Below, piece after piece: positions 35,790-44,776 of a stretch of DNA of 64,000 nucleotides. Origin of the DNA: Apostichopus japonicus (taxonomy: Eukaryota > Echinodermata > Holothuroidea > Aspidochirotida > Stichopodidae). The stretch covers positions 27,825,666 through 27,889,665 of the forward strand of contig NC_092579.1 of assembly GCF_037975245.1 (NCBI RefSeq), in the 5' to 3' direction. A program made the translations under genes and the position numbers. Positions within the stretch are counted from its first letter, which is position 1. Each line of letters opens with the position of its first letter. The notes below the pieces were generated by a model, which worked only from the letters and a program-made list of their open reading frames with translations, made no database searches and was not told where the DNA came from.

Positions 35790-35800
35790 ACCTAGAGTAG

Positions 35801-36085
35801 TGTATAGACCACAACCGGGGCACAATCGACAAGGGGGACCCCAACCGGGGCATAATCGACAAGGGGGACCCCAACCGGGGCATAATCGGTGACCGGAACT
35901 AGGGCAAAATAGACAGTGGGGACCCAGACCGGGGCAAAATGGACAGTGGGGACCCCAACCGGGGCATAATCGACAAGGGGGACCCGAACTAGGGCAAAAT
36001 GGACATTGGGGACCGGAACTAGGGCAAAATGGACATTGGGGACCCGAACCAGGGCAAAATGGACAGTGGGGACCCAAACTAGGGC
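35801..36085. repeat. 30-bp minisatellite at the left end of the foldback element
   Basis: About nine imperfect units of roughly 30 bp, such as ACTAGGGCAAAATGGACATT with GGGGACC. It is mirrored at 44477-44757 on the right arm. The open frames it produces, rich in Cys-Pro or Val-Pro, are periodicity artefacts. Confidence 0.9.
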
Positions 36086-36943
36086 ATTTCTGGAAAATGA
36101 GAACAAAAGCGATGTGTTGTACATTTTTTTTTTATTCGAGTGCACCACAGCATATCTTCACATCAAACAAGAAAATATATTGAACAAAAGGATAAGTCAA
36201 TAGTGGCTTTAGTGACAATAACAATAGCGACTCGTCCGTTAGGTAGGATATTGATTTCTGTTTGAGGCAAACAATTACTAACCCCTAAGATCATCGTCCG
36301 TTAGCTATTTTCGCGCTCAGTACACAATGAAACTCAATGTTCTCCTTTGGGGTCTTAACCTTTCCTTTAGGATATATTTTGTCCGGTACAGTAATGTAGC
36401 GGGGGACGAATTTTCCAAAAAATGTAGTACACAATTATATACAAACACACTAGCTACATATGAGAAAAACACTGTATTGAATATTGAAAGGTATCCAACA
36501 TCAGCACGACACTTTTCTAAACTCGTTAAAGTCAAAATAGATTTACCTAAAAGTTTCACTTGATCTGATACTAAAAAACGTTTTGCACCGAACAGTTCAT
36601 GAAACGTCACTTTGTAAATAATAAAATTAAAAAAAGATAAAAGATGCATCGCTAAACACATTTCATAAAATGTATGTCAATTTAAGAAAACACTTCATTT
36701 AAAATAAATAAACACATAAAATCATGCATGATTATGTTTAGAACAACAACTTGGTAAGCACATGAAATAGTGAACATTGAAATGATCAATCGTTAAAGAT
36801 ATGGATTGATAAAATAATATACATCTTGGTCATTACGGTGAACGTCATCGGTAAACCTTCCAACGATATCCGCCATACGTTGTCCACGGTTGTTATTTCT
36901 TTCTTCAGATCGATCGTATAGTCACCCACGTCTCTCTGACAAC

Positions 36944-37963
36944 TTACACATCGTTGTCATCGTCCTCCTCCTCATCACTTTCGTATTTGTTCTTCAGTCC
37001 ATGATGTAATATCTCATGCAAGGGCGGCGGATGCACTTTTAATCTGGGGGGGCACCGATATCAAAGGGCACTTTGCAGAAATTCGATTGGACTGATGCGG
37101 CCTTATATTTAGTACCCTTTATAACTCTTATTGTATTATCTTATTTGCGTATACACATCACTCCATCAACGCCCCCCCACCGAAGGAAAATATGCATACT
37201 GCACTGCAATATCCAATGTGCAAATTGGGAAACAAGGAACAAGTTTTCTTTTGAGACAAAATGAGGTGAAATCATGCTAGTTGCTAATGAAGTTGTATGC
37301 ACGACTATCTAAGTGGAGCGCCACCATCGGTTGGCGCGGAGCGTACAAGAAAATTTTTGGTTTTACAAACCCCTCAGATGGCTGGAAACAGCCCTTCCCG
37401 AGTGTTCATTCTGGTTCCCTGGCCTCTTGCTAAGTGAAGACACCTCAATTTTTATGTAGAAAAAGGGCACATTTTTATCCTGAGGAAAAGTGGGGGGGCA
37501 CGTGCCCCCTGTGCCCCCCCCGGTTCCGCCGCCCTTGTAATATCTTAGACATTTGCTTATTGAGTTCGAGCAAGTGCATCCAAGTCTCCACAGCATCATA
37601 CGTGCGTTCACCATCCTCGTCATCGTGATCGGCACCACCATCATCCTCACTGCTACTACTGCCAGTACCGTCTGATGTTTCAATCGGCTCATCCGAACTA
37701 TTTTGTTCATTACTTCCCTCAGTATCCACCAGGTCATCGTCCTCTTCACTGCGGTCATCGGTCGAATCACTTTCACGATGTTTGCATTTCACGCCGACAC
37801 GACGCGTATTCACATAACGATCTCTATTACCATTCACACTGTCATCCTCGCTTTTAGTTACCATCGCCGCCTTTTGATTACTAGGGTGAATGATGGATTC
37901 GTGTCGACGAAGATTGAACTGACGGTTAAATCCTTTATTGCATATTTTACAACGAAATCTCAT
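36944..37963 (-). pseudogene. C2H2 zinc-finger gene, left arm, split by a MITE
   Basis: Same gene as the intact copy at 43132-43620. The start is at 37963 and the original stop at 36946-36944. The coding sequence is interrupted near codon 140 by a 523-bp insertion (37015-37537) with an 8-bp duplication TAATATCT. Translation into the insertion would replace the acidic C-terminus with an unrelated tail. The finger CKICNKGF...RRHESIIH is unchanged, so a truncated protein with its DNA-binding finger could still be made. Confidence 0.85.
37015..37537. mobile_element. hAT-type MITE inserted in the left-arm zinc-finger gene
   Basis: Inverted ends CAAGGGCGGCGGA (from 37019) and TCCGCCGCCCTTG (to 37537), with an 8-bp target duplication TAATATCT at 37007-37014 and 37538-37545; four extra bases, CATG, precede the left end. 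It is absent at the matching site of the right arm (around 43548). It shares an internal stretch (GCGCCACCATCGGTTGG, 37318) with the element at 50119-50787. Confidence 0.9.
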
Positions 37964-38048
37964 CTTGAGGGTGTGTACTCTTTTGTGTCATTCGACGCAA
38001 TGAGAGCTATTAAACAAAAATGTGAATGATATACTTTTTGAATATATC

Positions 38049-38835
38049 AATATGAGCACATGCTCAATTGCTCATCTAAACGACTCTCTTTTGCTCACGA
38101 TGTGCTCTTTTGCTCTTTGAGTCACTCCTTTTATGCTCGCGCGCTCATCACATGAACCACATCATGCGTTTTTGTTTTGTTGCTAATTCTAATATGAGCA
38201 CATGCTCAATTGCTCATCTAAACGACTCTTTTTTGCTCACGGTGTGCTCTTTTGCTCTTTGAGTCACTCCTTTTGTGCTCGCGTGCTCATCACATGAACC
38301 ATATCATGCGTTTTTGTTTTGTTGCTAATTCTAATATGAGCACATGCTCAATTGATCATCTAAACGACTCTTTTTTGCTCACGGTGTGCTCTTTTGCTCT
38401 TTGAGTCACTCCTTTTGTGCTCGCGTGCTCATCACATGAACCACATCATGCGTTTTTGTTTTGTTGCTAATTCTAATATGAGCACATGCTCAATTGATCA
38501 TCTAAACGACTCTTTTTTGCTCACGGTGTGCTCTTTTGCTCTTTGAGTCACTCCTTTTGTGCTCGCGTGCTCATCACATGAACCACATCATGCGTTTTTG
38601 TTTTGTTGCTAATTCTAATATGAGCACATGCTCAATTGCTCATCTAAACGACTCTTTTTTGCTCACGGTGTGCTCTTTTGCTCTTTGAGTCACTCCTTTT
38701 GTGCTCGCGTGCTCATCACATGAACCACATCATGCGTTTTTGTTTTGTTGCTAATTCTAATATGAGCACATGCTCAATTGCTCATCTAAACGACTCTTTT
38801 TTGCTCACGGTGTGCTCTTCGAATCACTCATTTTG
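38049..38835. repeat. 142-bp tandem array, left arm
   Basis: Five full units and a partial sixth, period about 142 bp. Each unit contains GAGCACATGCTCAATTGCTC and many further TGCTC or GAGCA pentamers (TGCTCACGGTGTGCTC, GTGCTCGCGTGCTCATCAC). It lies just upstream of the left-arm zinc-finger gene. The right arm has one unit fewer. Confidence 0.95.
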
Positions 38836-39035
38836 TGCTCATATTTAAAAAATGATATAATCCACGGTAAAGGTTCCAGTGAAAATAATATCGTATGAAT
38901 CCACGGAACTTGCTTCGAAGGTCCGACAAAGGGAAGAGAGAAAGTATCCCGGTAAATGAATCCGATTGGTCTATGTGTATCAAGTTTTATGTCGTGTACG
39001 TGGCACAGGCGAAAGATCCTCAGGTATGGGACCAA

Positions 39036-39437
39036 TCAAGCCTGCTCGTGCAATGTATCAGCCAAAAACGCATCGACTTGGTTACTTTTCAGCCATGACG
39101 CACTTTTCCCGATCAAAAATTTGGCACAAAGTGAGACTGTCCTACCTAACCACTGTTTGTATACCCCAAATACTTTATCAAGTTCTAATGGAGCACCTTC
39201 CTCCCGAAGACTATTTGACCTTCTGCCCCCTTTACCCCTCTTTGAAAACGATCGATCGGGACCATTGTCTGCCAACAGCCTAAGATTCCAACACACACAA
39301 TGAGGCATTATCGATACTTGGGTGAGACTTGGCATGTATAATGTGCACATATACGCAGTGTATATAGTGTATTTGTATAACACTGTGTGAGCTATAGGCA
39401 CAACGTATGAGACCATCGTAACCCATGTTTGGATCAT
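39036..39437 (-). CDS. Hypothetical 133-codon frame, left arm
   Basis: Open frame of 133 codons, not recognised, with the more protein-like part near the C-terminus (VYKQWLGRTVSLCAKFLIGK). The matching frame in the right arm is broken by one extra G in a G run near 42031. The ATG lies only 20 bp from the 5' end of the U2-like segment on the opposite strand, so it may be a promoter-region artefact. No known domain was seen. Confidence 0.2.
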   Translation of the reverse strand: MIQTWVTMVSYVVPIAHTVLYKYTIYTAYMCTLYMPSLTQVSIMPHCVCWNLRLLADNGPDRSFSKRGKGGRRSNSLREEGAPLELDKVFGVYKQWLGRTVSLCAKFLIGKSASWLKSNQVDAFLADTLHEQA

Positions 39438-39456
39438 CCTTATTTTAGATAACTGG

Positions 39457-39636
39457 CTCGCTTCTCGGCCTTTTGGCTAAGATCATGTGTAGTATCTGTT
39501 CTTTTCGGGAATGGTGATGCACACCTGACGATGATCACACAGTCACAGTCCCGATGTAAGGGGACTGGGGTTAGAAGCGGATCAGTCGTTCAGTAGTTTG
39601 GTTTTCGTTCCCAGGTTCTTTCCTGGGCGACTTTTT
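39457..39636 (+). ncRNA. U2-like RNA segment, left arm
   Basis: The first 47 nt (39457-39503) match the 5' end of U2 snRNA as remembered, with two differences (first base, and A to T at position 30). They keep stem I and the branch-site-pairing GTAGTA. The remainder is not canonical U2: stem II and the usual Sm site are absent. Instead there are other potential helices: CAGTCCC/GGGACTG (39546-39552 with 39561-39567), AGTCG/CGACT (39584-39588 with 39628-39632) and CCCAGG/CCTGGG (39610-39615 with 39622-39627), followed by a T run. The length of about 180 nt is close to U2. It could be a divergent transcribed snRNA-like gene or a U2-derived relic; expression is unknown. Confidence 0.6.
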
Positions 39637-40003
39637 CTTAAAAAGTATTTTGGATAACTGGCTCTTATTAGCCAGGTAAGTTTTCTTTTCTAACCGCAAA
39701 GTTTTGGTTTTCACTCGTTTCCCCATGAAACATTAGTTTGTCTGTAACTTGCTATTCCCCGGAAAAGTCAACACTAACGAGATTTTTCTTTCCTAGAGTT
39801 TTCTCAGTACTACGATAGGGCGAGCATACTTTTTTTGATATCTAAATAACGATGGTAAAATGGAACTAAGATCACCGTTAGGTCTACAATAAATTTACAT
39901 TTTACTTGAGTCGTATGGTAAAATGGACCTCAAAAACACCTTTTTGTGTACAATAAAGATTGTGCTTGATGATATACACACATCGTACATTTGGATATGG
40001 TAT

Positions 40004-41231
40004 AATGTGAATAGTACACGTATTGAACAAACGGATAAGTCAATAGTGACTTTAGTGACAATAACAATAGCGACTCGTCCGTTAGGTAGGATATCGATGT
40101 TTGAGGCAAAAAATTACTAGCCCCTAAGATGATCGTCCGTTTGCTATATTCGCGCTGTTTATAAGACACGTTACGGTTAAGAATTTCGCGACCGGAAACA
40201 TTATTACATTATCCGTTTGTTCAATACGTGTACTATTCACATTCGTTGATGTTTTTACACTGTGTAACATATAGCCAGCGGTACAAATGTTTCTACGTAC
40301 AATAGCGTCAAACGGTGCATAGATAGTTTTATATATTTAAGGGAAAATAAAACAAAGTTGCAAGTCCTAGATCAATTTTAGGGATGACATCATCAGTTGC
40401 ATAAGTACATCGTACGAGTGAGTACTGCGCATGTGTAAAGAGGCGGTGCTTACATGATTTGGCGGTATTTTTGAAACTAGCCATTACCTATACTTACACT
40501 GTGGCGTACACACTAAACGCTATTAACATTTGGAACCCTATATAAGACGATGTCTCTGTGGTGATTACGTCATTTGAGCAATAGCCTCGAAGATGGCTAG
40601 CACGAGCATATTGTGTCTTTTATTGTCAACGTTTTGAAACACCAACGCAAATTGTAAATCACCCGGTGGCCTGCATTTGTATTCCACCGTTGGGTATTTG
40701 CGGCATGTGGAGGAGGAGCAGGAGCCTGAAGGAGCAGAGGATAACGGGAAAAGAATACAATGTCTTCATAGAGACACTGGCCGAAATTTTCCCGGAAACT
40801 CACCATGGTAGATGAGGACATTAAGGAGGAAGAAGAAACCATCGAAGACCTTGTCAGACTTAAGCTGATCAGTACTTTTTTTTTTAATTTTTAACCGACT
40901 CTACAAAGGGTTATCAAATATTCCAGAAAGAGCAGACTCAACACTCTCCTTAAACATGCATTGTGTCGTCTCATTTATTTCTAACGTATGTATAGGCTTA
41001 ACTATAGTGGTAGGCCATTTAGGCATTGATGTAATTTAAGAGGTTGGTTAATTTAATACATTTAGGCTAGTTCAGTTATATATTCTTCTATCATGTAAAG
41101 GCTCCGATACTTTACAACATAGACCTGTTTATATATATATATATATATATCTATATATATATATATATATTTACCCAAATACATAGATCTTTATATAGTC
41201 TACGTTATTTTAAACTTAGGACCGTATAAAA
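40004..41231. other. Spacer of the foldback element
   Basis: Unique centre between the arms. It contains a 35-bp perfect inverted pair (40004-40038 and 40209-40243), a diverged third copy (about 40023-40157) of a block found near 36180-36316 in the arm, a (TA)n tract at about 41129-41170, and a short purine-rich stretch around 40690-40850. No gene was recognised. Confidence 0.7.
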
Positions 41232-41598
41232 ATACCATATCCAAATGTACGATGTGTGTATATCATCAAGCACAATCTTTATTGTACACAAAAAGGTGTT
41301 TTTGAGGTCCATTTTACCATACGACTCAAGTAAAATGTAAATTTATTGTAGACCTAACGGTGATCTTAGTTCCATTTTACCATCGTTATTTAGACATCAA
41401 AAAAAGTATGCTCGCCCTATCGTAGTACTGAGAAAACTCTAGGAAAGAAAAATCTCGTTAGTGTTGACTTTTCCGGGGAATAGCAAGTTACAGACAAACT
41501 AATGTTTCATGGGGAAACGAGTGAAAACCAAAACTTTGCGGTTAGAAAAGAAAACTTACCTGGCTAATAAGAGCCAGTTATCCAAAATACTTTTTAAG

Positions 41599-41778
41599 AA
41601 AAAGTCGCCCAGGAAAGAACCTGGGAACGAAAACCAAACTACTGAACGACTGATCCGCTTCTAACCCCAGTCCCCTTGCATCGGGACTGTGACTGTGTGA
41701 TCATCGTCAGGTGTGCATCACCATTCCCGAAAAGAACAGATACTACACATGATCTTAGCCAAAAGGCCGAGAAGCGAG
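41599..41778 (-). ncRNA. U2-like RNA segment, right arm
   Basis: Inverted copy of 39457-39636; the U2-matching 47 nt are 41778-41732. One clear difference from the left copy is T to C in the predicted 8-nt loop of the CAGTCCC/GGGACTG stem, leaving the pairing intact. As in the left arm, a diverging open frame starts about 20 bp upstream. Confidence 0.6.
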
Positions 41779-41797
41779 CCAGTTATCTAAAATAAGG

Positions 41798-42200
41798 ATG
41801 ATCCAAACATGGGTTACGATGGTCTCATACGTTGTGCCTATAGCTCACACAGTGTTATACAAATACACTATATACACTGCGTATATGTGCACATTATACA
41901 TGCTAAGTCTCACCCAAGTATCGATAATGCCTCATTGTGTGTGTTGGAATCTTAGGCTGTTGGCAGACAATGGTCCCGATCGATCGTTTTCAAAGAGGGG
42001 TAAAGGGGGCAGAAGGTCAAATAGTCTTCGGGGAGGAAGGTGCTCCATTAGAACTTGATAAAGTATTTGGGGTATACAAACAGTGGTTAGGTAGGACAGT
42101 CTCACTTTGTGCCAAATTTTTGATCGGGAAAAGTGCGTCATGGCTGAAAAGTAACCAAGTCGATGCGTTTTTGGCTGATACATTGCACGAGCAGGCTTGA
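41798..42200 (+). pseudogene. Frameshifted copy of the 133-codon frame, right arm
   Basis: Corresponds to 39437-39036 in the left arm. One extra G at about 42031 (GGGG instead of GGG) breaks the frame into 41798-42058 and an overlapping frame that continues to 42200 with the same C-terminal residues. Either arm could hold the ancestral state. Real coding status is doubtful. Confidence 0.25.
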
Positions 42201-42407
42201 TTGGTCCCATACCTGAGGATCTTTCGCCTGTGCCACGTACACGACATAAAACTTGATACACATAGACCAATCGGATTCATTTACCGGGATACTTTCTCTC
42301 TTCCCTTTGTCGGACCTTCGAAGCAAGTTCCGTGGATTCATACGATATTATTTTCACTGGAACCTTTACCGTGGATTATATCATTTTTTAAATATGAGCA
42401 CAAAATG

Positions 42408-43048
42408 AGTGATTCGAAGAGCACACCGTGAGCAAAAAAGAGTCGTTTAGATGAGCAATTGAGCATGTGCTCATATTAGAATTAGCAACAAAACAAAAAC
42501 GCATGATGTGGTTCATGTGATGAGCACGCGAGCACAAAAGGAGTGACTCAAAGAGCAAAAGAGCACACCGTGAGCAAAAAAGAGTCGTTTAGATGAGCAA
42601 TTGAGCATGTGCTCATATTAGAATTAGCAACAAAACAAAAACGCATGATGTGGTTCATGTGATGAGCACGCGAGCACAAAAGGAGTGACTCAAAGAGCAA
42701 AAGAGCACACCGTGAGCAAAAAAAGAGTCGTTTAGATGAGCAATTGAGCATGTGCTCATATTAGAATTAGCAACAAAACAAAAACGCATGATATGGTTCA
42801 TGTGATGAGCACGCGAGCACAAAAGGAGTGACTCAAAGAGCAAAAGAGCACACCGTGAGCAAAAAAGAGTCGTTTAGATGAGCAATTGAGCATGTGCTCA
42901 TATTAGAATTAGCAACAAAACAAAAACGCATGATGTGGTTCATGTGATGAGCGCGCGAGCATAAAAGGAGTGACTCAAAGAGCAAAAGAGCACATCGTGA
43001 GCAAAAGAGAGTCGTTTAGATGAGCAATTGAGCATGTGCTCATATTGA
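42408..43048. repeat. 142-bp tandem array, right arm
   Basis: About four and a half units of the same repeat as 38049-38835, inverted. Adjacent units differ by few bases. It lies directly upstream of the intact zinc-finger gene. Confidence 0.95.
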
Positions 43049-43131
43049 TATATTCAAAAAGTATATCATTCACATTTTTGTTTAATAGCTCTCATTGCGT
43101 CGAATGACACAAAAGAGTACACACCATCAAG

Positions 43132-43620
43132 ATGAGATTTCGTTGTAAAATATGCAATAAAGGATTTAACCGTCAGTTCAATCTTCGTCGACACGAATCC
43201 ATCATTCACCCTAGTAATCAAAAGGCGGCGATGGTAACTAAAAGCGAGGATGACAGTGTGAATGGTAATAGAGATCGTTATGTGAATACGCGTCGTGTCG
43301 GCGTGAAATGCAAACATCGTGAAAGTGATTCGACCGATGACCGCAGTGAAGAGGACGATGACCTGGTGGATACTGAGGGAAGTAATGAACAAAATAGTTC
43401 GGATGAGCCGATTGAAACATCAGACGGTACTGGCAGTAGTAGCAGTGAGGATGATGGTGGTGCCGATCACGATGACGAGGATGGTGAACGCACGTATGAT
43501 GCTGTGGAGACTTGGATGCACTTGCTCGAACTCAATAAGCAAATGTCTAAGATATTACATCATGGACTGAAGAACAAATACGAAAGTGATGATGAGGAGG
43601 ACGATGACAACGATGTGTAA
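43132..43620 (+). CDS. Single C2H2 zinc finger protein with acidic tail (intact, right arm)
   Basis: 162 aa in one exon. The N-terminus MRFRCKICNKGFNRQ is one classical C2H2 finger, C-x2-C-x12-H-x4-H, at residues 5-26. It is followed by a basic linker and a long Asp/Glu/Ser-rich region ending DDEEDDDNDV. A short hydrophobic heptad-like stretch (WMHLLELNKQMSKIL) could mediate dimerisation. No family was recognised beyond the finger. It is the only convincing protein of the foldback element, it lies downstream of the TGCTC-rich array, and it is kept open here while the left copy is broken. A role in binding the element's own repeats is speculation. Confidence 0.65.
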   Translation: MRFRCKICNKGFNRQFNLRRHESIIHPSNQKAAMVTKSEDDSVNGNRDRYVNTRRVGVKCKHRESDSTDDRSEEDDDLVDTEGSNEQNSSDEPIETSDGTGSSSSEDDGGADHDDEDGERTYDAVETWMHLLELNKQMSKILHHGLKNKYESDDEEDDDNDV

Positions 43621-44476
43621 GTTGTCAGAGAGACGTGGGTGACTATACGATCGATCTGAAGAAAGAAATAACAACCGTGGACAACGTATGGCGGATATCG
43701 TTGGAAGGTTTACCGATGACGTTCACCGTAATGACCAAGATGTATATTATTTTATCAATCCATATCTTTAACGATTGATCATTTCAATGTTCACTATTTC
43801 ATGTGCTTACCAAGTTGTTGTTCTAAACATAATCATGCATGATTTTATGTGTTTATTTATTTTAAATGAAGTGTTTTCTTAAATTGACATACATTTTATG
43901 AAATGTGTTTAGCGATGCATCTTTTATCTTTTTTTAATTTTATTATTTACAAAGTGACGTTTCATGAACTGTTCGGTGCAAAACGTTTTTTAGTATCAGA
44001 TCAAGTGAAACTTTTAGGTAAATCTATTTTGACTTCTAAACGAGTTTAGAAAAGTGTCGTGCTGATGTTGGATACCTTTCAATATTCAATACAGTGTTTT
44101 TCTCATATGTAGCTAGTGTGTTTGTATATAATTGTGTACTACATTTTTTGGAAAATTCGTCCCCCGCTACATTACTGTACCGGACAAAATATATCCTAAA
44201 GGAAAGGTTAAGACCCCAAAGGAGAACATTGAGTTTCATTGTGTACTGAGCGCGAAAATAGCTAACGGACGATGATCTTAGGGGTTAGTAATTGTTTGCC
44301 TCAAACAGAAATCAATATCCTACCTAACGGACGAGTCGCTATTGTTATTGTCACTAAAGCCACTATTGACTTATCCTTTTGTTCAATATATTTTCTTGTT
44401 TGATGTGAAGATATGCTGTGGTGCACTCGAATAAAAAAAAAATGTACAACACATCGCTTTTGTTCTCATTTTCCAG

Positions 44477-44757
44477 AAATGCCCTAGTTTGGGTCCCCAC
44501 TGTCCATTTTGCCCTGGTTCGGGTCCCCAATGTCCATTTTGCCCTAGTTCCGGTCCCCAATGTCCATTTTGCCCTAGTTCGGGTCCCCCTTGTCGATTAT
44601 GCCGCGGTTGGGGTCCCCACTGTCCATTTTGCCCCGGTCTGGGTCCCCACTGTCTATTTTGCCCTAGTTCCGGTCACCGATTATGCCCCGGTTGGGGTCC
44701 CCCTTGTCGAATATGCCCCGGTTGGGGTCCCCCTTGTCGATTGTGCCCCGGTTGTGG
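44477..44757. repeat. 30-bp minisatellite at the right end of the foldback element
   Basis: Mirror of 35801-36085. Units resemble GGTCCCCAATGTCC then ATTTTGCCCTAGTTCC. The array ends 13 bp before the element terminus. Confidence 0.9.
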
Positions 44758-44776
44758 TCTATACACTACTACCTAG

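Follow-up and report, generated by a model that had tools for sequence, protein, structure and literature searches.

A U2-headed SINE of the sea cucumber Apostichopus japonicus, with copies inside U2 snRNA genes

The element and its host transposon

We analysed a window of 64,000 nucleotides of the Apostichopus japonicus genome (contig NC_092579.1, positions 27,825,666 to 27,889,665, forward strand), in which a first-pass annotation made from the letters alone had pointed to a transposon-borne element that begins like U2 small nuclear RNA (snRNA) and then continues differently. The element is a copy of a short interspersed element (SINE) with a U2-derived head, that is, a non-autonomous retroposon without an evident promoter of its own. 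About 190 bp long, it consists of the U2 head, then an unrelated body, then a hairpin tail (CTTTTTCTTAAAAAGTA). The copy in the left arm of the transposon lies on the forward strand at about 39459..39647, with its head at about 39457-39506, its body at 39507-39630 and its terminal hairpin and tail at 39631-39647. The copy in the right arm lies on the reverse strand at 41588..41776. The two differ at 1 of 191 positions (compared over 41588-41778 on the right), which bears out the annotated presence of the element in both arms. The list of open reading frames (ORFs) has none of 90 or more amino acids over the element.

The U2 model of Rfam (RF00004, gathering score 46) matches the window at 39457-39551 (+) and 41684-41778 (-) with 57.3 bits each, so that the covariance-model search suggested by the first-pass annotation places both arm copies above the gathering score. 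The window contains a 25-nt core of U2 at two places, and 100 shuffles contained none. In the whole genome searched (671,581,487 bases in 35 contigs), full-length U2 gives 46 scored matches of 182-187 bits, 42 on contig C16 and 4 on C15. The window element is no such full-length U2 with a 3' domain, as both its score and the extent of its homology indicate: over the first 55 positions it differs from the genome's own U2 only at positions 1, 51, 53, 54 and 55, so that nt 2-50 are identical and homology ends at nt 50. The annotated fusion of a U2 5' domain to a different 3' part is therefore real, while the accompanying figure of 45 matches in 47 positions understated the match.

On the forward strand the left-arm copy stands between a target-site duplication at 39443..39458 (TTTTAGATAACTGGCT) and its second copy at 39648..39663 (TTTTGGATAACTGGCT), with one mismatch between them. 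The duplication reads TTTT(A/G)GATAACTGGCT, and the CT at 39457-39458 can be assigned equally to it or to the SINE. Because the SINE is flanked by a target-site duplication of its own, it was inserted into the transposon, and the idea that the mobile element has a branch-site-recognizing RNA gene as a component of its own is not supported. The host DNA transposon spans 35796..44770 (no strand assigned), with long inverted arms that align over 1815, 1228 and 1172 bp at 98.7-99.3% identity, ends AGTAGTGTATAG...CTATACACTACT and the flanking duplication ACCTAG. As the arms are inverted copies of each other, the SINE is present twice. The same SINE flanks as in the window recur at 17 of 30 loci cut out of the genome, on C2, C3, C7, C16 and C19; the SINE therefore hit one ancestral transposon and was multiplied with it. 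Nothing observed indicates that the transposon makes use of the SINE. The arms also contain 142-bp tandem repeats, and the 6-bp flanking duplication and AG...CT ends recall Polinton termini, a tentative likeness; the coding content was surveyed as an ORF list.

Dispersed copies and their target sites

A pattern for the 3' end of the SINE (up to 3 mismatches) matches 1,082 places in the genome (557 + 525), against 0 for the reversed control, and a pattern for the head-body junction (up to 2 mismatches) matches 76 (39 + 37). Twenty regions fetched from among the first 3'-end matches listed all hold the SINE, in some cases truncated or in tandem. At one locus, L084 (C2:21947400-21948600), copies form a tandem cluster with TCCTAT-type repeats between them, and at least nine SINE tails lie in 21947817-21948945. 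From 74 distinct copies collected, 55 dispersed ones were tested for target-site duplications, with transposon-borne copies, U2-resident copies and one tailless copy left out. Exact flanking repeats of at least 8 nt were found in 36 of the 55 and of at least 10 nt in 31, while flanks re-paired 200 times yielded repeats of at least 8 nt in 1.56 copies on average and in 5 at most. The family is thus short, repetitive, dispersed and non-coding, with target-site duplications and a head from a small-RNA gene, as in SINEs generally, and that gene being U2, as in the class SINEU. A SINE head had been one of several guesses in the first-pass annotation, and it was the correct one; the U2 match does prove to be a common U2-derived repeat fragment, which the annotation had named as an outcome that would count against its own reading, and the repeat is more interesting than was foreseen.

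SINEs with snRNA heads are known as SINEU, a class cited in PMC5753468, PMC7245038 and PMC8010984. The family described here shares with them a spliceosomal snRNA head, small size, dispersal and target-site duplications. In crocodilians, Kojima (2015) reportedly described SINEU with heads derived from U1 or U2 snRNA, mobilized by a LINE (long interspersed element) of the Tx1 clade and preferring a Mariner transposon as target. Unlike these, the echinoderm SINE belongs to another animal group and sits in U2 genes at a LINE site behind the U2 promoter. Mammalian tailless and other U2 retropseudogenes are retroposed 5' parts of U2 (PMC5322556); they are dead and have no common body or tail, whereas the SINE is a defined composite with subfamilies.

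Between the subfamily consensuses the head is unchanged, compared with 5-8 changes per 140 body positions; the head counts of 2, 2 and 4 reflect missing first bases and no substitutions. We considered whether conversion or selection had kept the head constant and rejected this, because 0 consensus changes against about two expected is not significant. Within subfamilies, head and body vary about equally (35/2118 and 144/7486 variable positions). A hairpin replaces stem IIa of U2 (alignment columns 43-59) and has one long and several short forms, each of which occurs with more than one body subfamily.

Dispersed copies prefer sites that resemble the U2 target (AYCT). In dispersed loci, the bases after AAAAAGTA are T in 23, C in 23 and T in 21 of 37 (p = 3e-5, 4e-8 and 4e-4), the 37 being what was left of 44 loci once 3 probable duplicates and 4 lacking GTA were set aside. 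A second sample was drawn from 100 listed of 500 matches and came to 74 flanks after the removal of repeated flanks, of variants of a tandem cluster and of flanks that continue like U2 or the SINE; in it the same bases were found in 44, 34 and 34 flanks (p = 6e-8, 7e-7 and 2e-3). Its pattern excludes G from the eighth base, and some loci belong to both samples. The A-Y-C belongs to the target DNA, since it lies inside the duplication in many copies.

SINEs and LINEs in the U2 genes

The U2 array on C16 has a repeat unit of 645 bp, but two spacings in it are odd, at 1443 and 2226 bases. These predicted disrupted U2 genes, and the regions, fetched afterwards, contained insertions in three U2 genes: one truncated SINE, flanked by the duplication GTATCTGTTCTTTTCAGC, and two full-length SINEs. 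In the full-length residents, U2 upstream sequence leads into U2 1-46, which is followed by the body, the tail and U2 35-201; the head is not repeated. A third U2 gene with a full-length form, carrying one head change, lies near 31.059 Mb. At 31.021 Mb a truncated SINE is nested at the U2 site within the head of a resident SINE, and at 31.007 Mb another truncated SINE with a U2 duplication stands behind a LINE. The two truncated residents just named with a U2 duplication share the form GTATCTGTTCTTTTCAG(C), with 17-18 nt of U2 duplicated. The C16 array thus has a full-length SINE at U2 nt 35 in 3 genes and truncated or nested SINEs at 3 places more. The four scored U2 genes on C15 showed no inserted SINE. 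The U2 genes of C15 and C16 (L001-L003 versus L004) have unlike upstream sequences and a slightly different 3' half.

A query made of the U2 upstream sequence joined to the SINE aligned from end to end at 4 places, none outside the C16 array, three of them at 99-100% identity and a truncated one at 93%; these are among the best 40 of 2,793 candidates, a ranking that favours full-length copies. The other 36 of these 40 start at query positions 62-75, where U2 +1 is position 70. In the loci sample, which was not ranked by that score alone, 25 of 37 copies start within U2 nt 1-5. Full-length residents stand behind intact U2 upstream sequence, and dispersed copies mostly begin at or near U2 +1.

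Two types of LINE occupy the same stretch of U2. Type 1 lies between U2 1-31 and U2 35-201, with 3 nt deleted, and type 2 between U2 1-30 and U2 38-201, with 7 nt deleted; the 3' join of type 1 falls between A and GTATCTG, and that of type 2 lies 3 nt further on. By a junction pattern we found ten 3' joins between A and GTATCTG, six with a SINE tail and four with a type 1 LINE tail; the pattern bars G five bases before the join, and at least one more LINE junction (L093) lies outside the ten. Both types have a zinc-knuckle ORF1, an APE-type endonuclease (PF03372) and a reverse transcriptase (PF00078); in type 1 the second frame is broken, and its domains were searched in pieces. One LINE copy (L092, in the L089, L092 region, C16:30.87-31.14 Mb) has an intact-looking second frame of 1157 amino acids. 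The 3' ends of the two types occur at 12 and 7 places in the genome, all on C16 at 30.87-31.14 Mb, and some of the 12 type 1 places lie to the side of the scored U2 genes, as far as about 140 kb from them.

This U2 site is also the target of the LINEs Keno, whose endonuclease is of the APE type, and Utopia (PMC4640811). The insertion site found here is at or adjoins the same position, and the LINEs are APE-type as Keno is; unlike Keno and Utopia, the SINE is non-coding and dispersed. We call the LINEs of this genome no more than Keno-like.

Sequence links residents with dispersed copies: over 191 positions no difference separates one of the dispersed copies from a resident, and four others show 1 difference. 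Further junctions at the same nucleotide occur in five dimers, chosen from multi-piece loci because their second unit starts at U2 nt 35. At L098, a young unit is joined at nt 35 to an old, diverged one, with no repeated head. At L099, a truncated copy has its head split at GTATCTG by a full-length unit that belongs to a different subfamily. The split copy retains a recognizable outer duplication (TATTAATAA), and its head is partly repeated, so that the join is not seamless. The remaining three are made of like units, and two of them, L101 and L102, are each flanked as a whole by one duplication, so that a dimer RNA probably moved as one; these two were not counted as separate insertions.

A proposed transcription cycle and its alternatives

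Retroposition leaves snRNA promoters behind, since they are external to the gene, so that the transcription of snRNA-headed SINEs is a puzzle. We think it probable that this SINE is transcribed from U2 promoters after re-insertion into U2, with a U2-targeting LINE as the likely helper and the dispersed copies as promoterless by-products. A SINE at nt 35 of a U2 gene would be transcribed by the U2 promoter into an RNA that starts at U2 nt 1, has the order U2(1-46)-body-tail and continues into the adjoining U2 sequence GUAUCUG. A Keno-like LINE protein with an APE endonuclease would nick U2 near GTATCTG and prime reverse transcription on the SINE RNA. The head of a full-length complementary DNA (cDNA) would join the matching upstream target seamlessly, giving a new promoter-driven copy, while a truncated cDNA would leave a U2 duplication. 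Many products would land at U2-site-like places elsewhere, promoterless; the window copy would be one of these, having hit a DNA transposon that then multiplied it. More tentatively, and at somewhat less than even chances, the element could be called a homing SINE: a promoterless parasite that retains part of the host U2 gene as its head, which merges with U2 on landing there so that the U2 promoter is regained, all other landings being dead ends. The head would then be a guide back to a promoter and not the promoter itself. R2-derived short non-autonomous elements (SIDEs) in ribosomal DNA are likewise non-autonomous and site-specific, and their transcription presumably occurs as part of that of the RNA gene in which they sit. 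They are LINE-derived, unlike this SINE, which keeps host U2 sequence as its 5' head.

Several observations weigh against this cycle, of which the link to the helper is the weakest part. The SINE tail does not resemble the 3' end of either U2 LINE. Neither LINE was found outside the U2 region, in contrast to the dispersed SINE. On both counts another helper may be at work. A genome pattern search for a partner LINE, using the terminal hairpin without the preceding CCTGGG, found only 2 places; by its letters one resembles a SINE that has lost a short stretch, and the other (L090) is a short hairpin fragment adjoining a SINE copy, and we rejected both. Full-length LINEs remove U2 nucleotides, whereas truncated SINEs duplicate them. 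Among dispersed copies, 19 of 55 have no clear exact duplication, and neither sample is enriched for the G that follows TCT in U2 (2/37 and 7/74). None of the six SINE junctions found belongs to the window subfamily, which is separated from the residents by 14-15 differences in 191 positions. Recombination of the SINE with U2 could have produced the seamless full-length residents. Transcription from the U2 promoter, Keno-like help and head-guided seamless joining are each inferred from anatomy.

It is also conceivable, if rather unlikely, that this is an ordinary SINEU with an internal promoter in its head or body, any dispersed copy being a source and the residents being chance landings at AYCT or recombinants. 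SINE heads usually serve as RNA polymerase III promoters (PMC7245038). The more than a thousand dispersed copies, the several subfamilies and the absence of residents from the window subfamily would fit such a source. However, TTTT and TTTTT occur within the element, upstream of its conserved 3' end, and internal T runs are unfavourable for transcription by RNA polymerase III. Chance would also have to bring six SINE junctions to the very same nucleotide of U2, a gene that forms a tiny share of the genome, and an internal promoter would have to account for 5' ends that lie mostly at or near U2 +1 without upstream sequence. The residents might instead have arisen by gene conversion or recombination of dispersed SINEs with U2, by way of GTATCTG and the head that they share, and be irrelevant to the SINE cycle. 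The lack of a repeated head in full-length residents speaks for this, and the sharing of hairpin variants among body subfamilies suggests exchange. We nevertheless consider it quite improbable, as the U2 duplications of 17-18 nt at the two truncated residents are a mark of retroposition, and at L099 the SINE that received the insertion at its U2 site is a dispersed one, with an outer duplication that can still be made out.

That the transposon carries a functional U2-like snRNA gene affecting splicing, finally, is hardly credible. The constancy of the head, with its stem I and branch-site sequence, between subfamily consensuses would agree with such a gene, although weakly, given that only about two changes were expected; within subfamilies the head varies about as the body does. 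The predicted fold does include the stem CAGTCCC/GGGACTG and the 3' hairpins named in the first-pass annotation, and single-sequence folds score z = -2.7 (window), -4.7 (resident) and -4.4 (older type) against mononucleotide shuffles, a weak control. The compensatory changes that the annotation had proposed to look for in an alignment of copies did not materialize: RNAalifold on 55 copies gave 41 pairs, 4 of them with any double change, and a covariation term of -1.02, these copies being too alike to say more on structure. With covariation negligible, we rejected RNA structure as a sign of function. No U2 upstream sequence precedes the window copies, and inspection of the SINE body by eye showed no site like the Sm site of U2. 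The suggested influence on splicing was accordingly not borne out, and a splicing role of the window element has no support.

In the literature searched, with most subscription journals and the Repbase entries outside it, we found neither a U2-homing cycle or a SINE resident in U2 genes nor a paper on Apostichopus japonicus U2 snRNA and a retrotransposon. SINE copies exceed the Rfam threshold for U2 and can inflate U2 gene counts; a published assembly of this species lists 996 splicing snRNAs and 0.02% SINEs (PMC10344927). If the source copies do lie inside an snRNA gene, this would solve the puzzle of how SINEU are transcribed, and in a form that is testable in one animal. It would also mean that a SINE has a genic home site, where it disrupts several U2 genes of an array.
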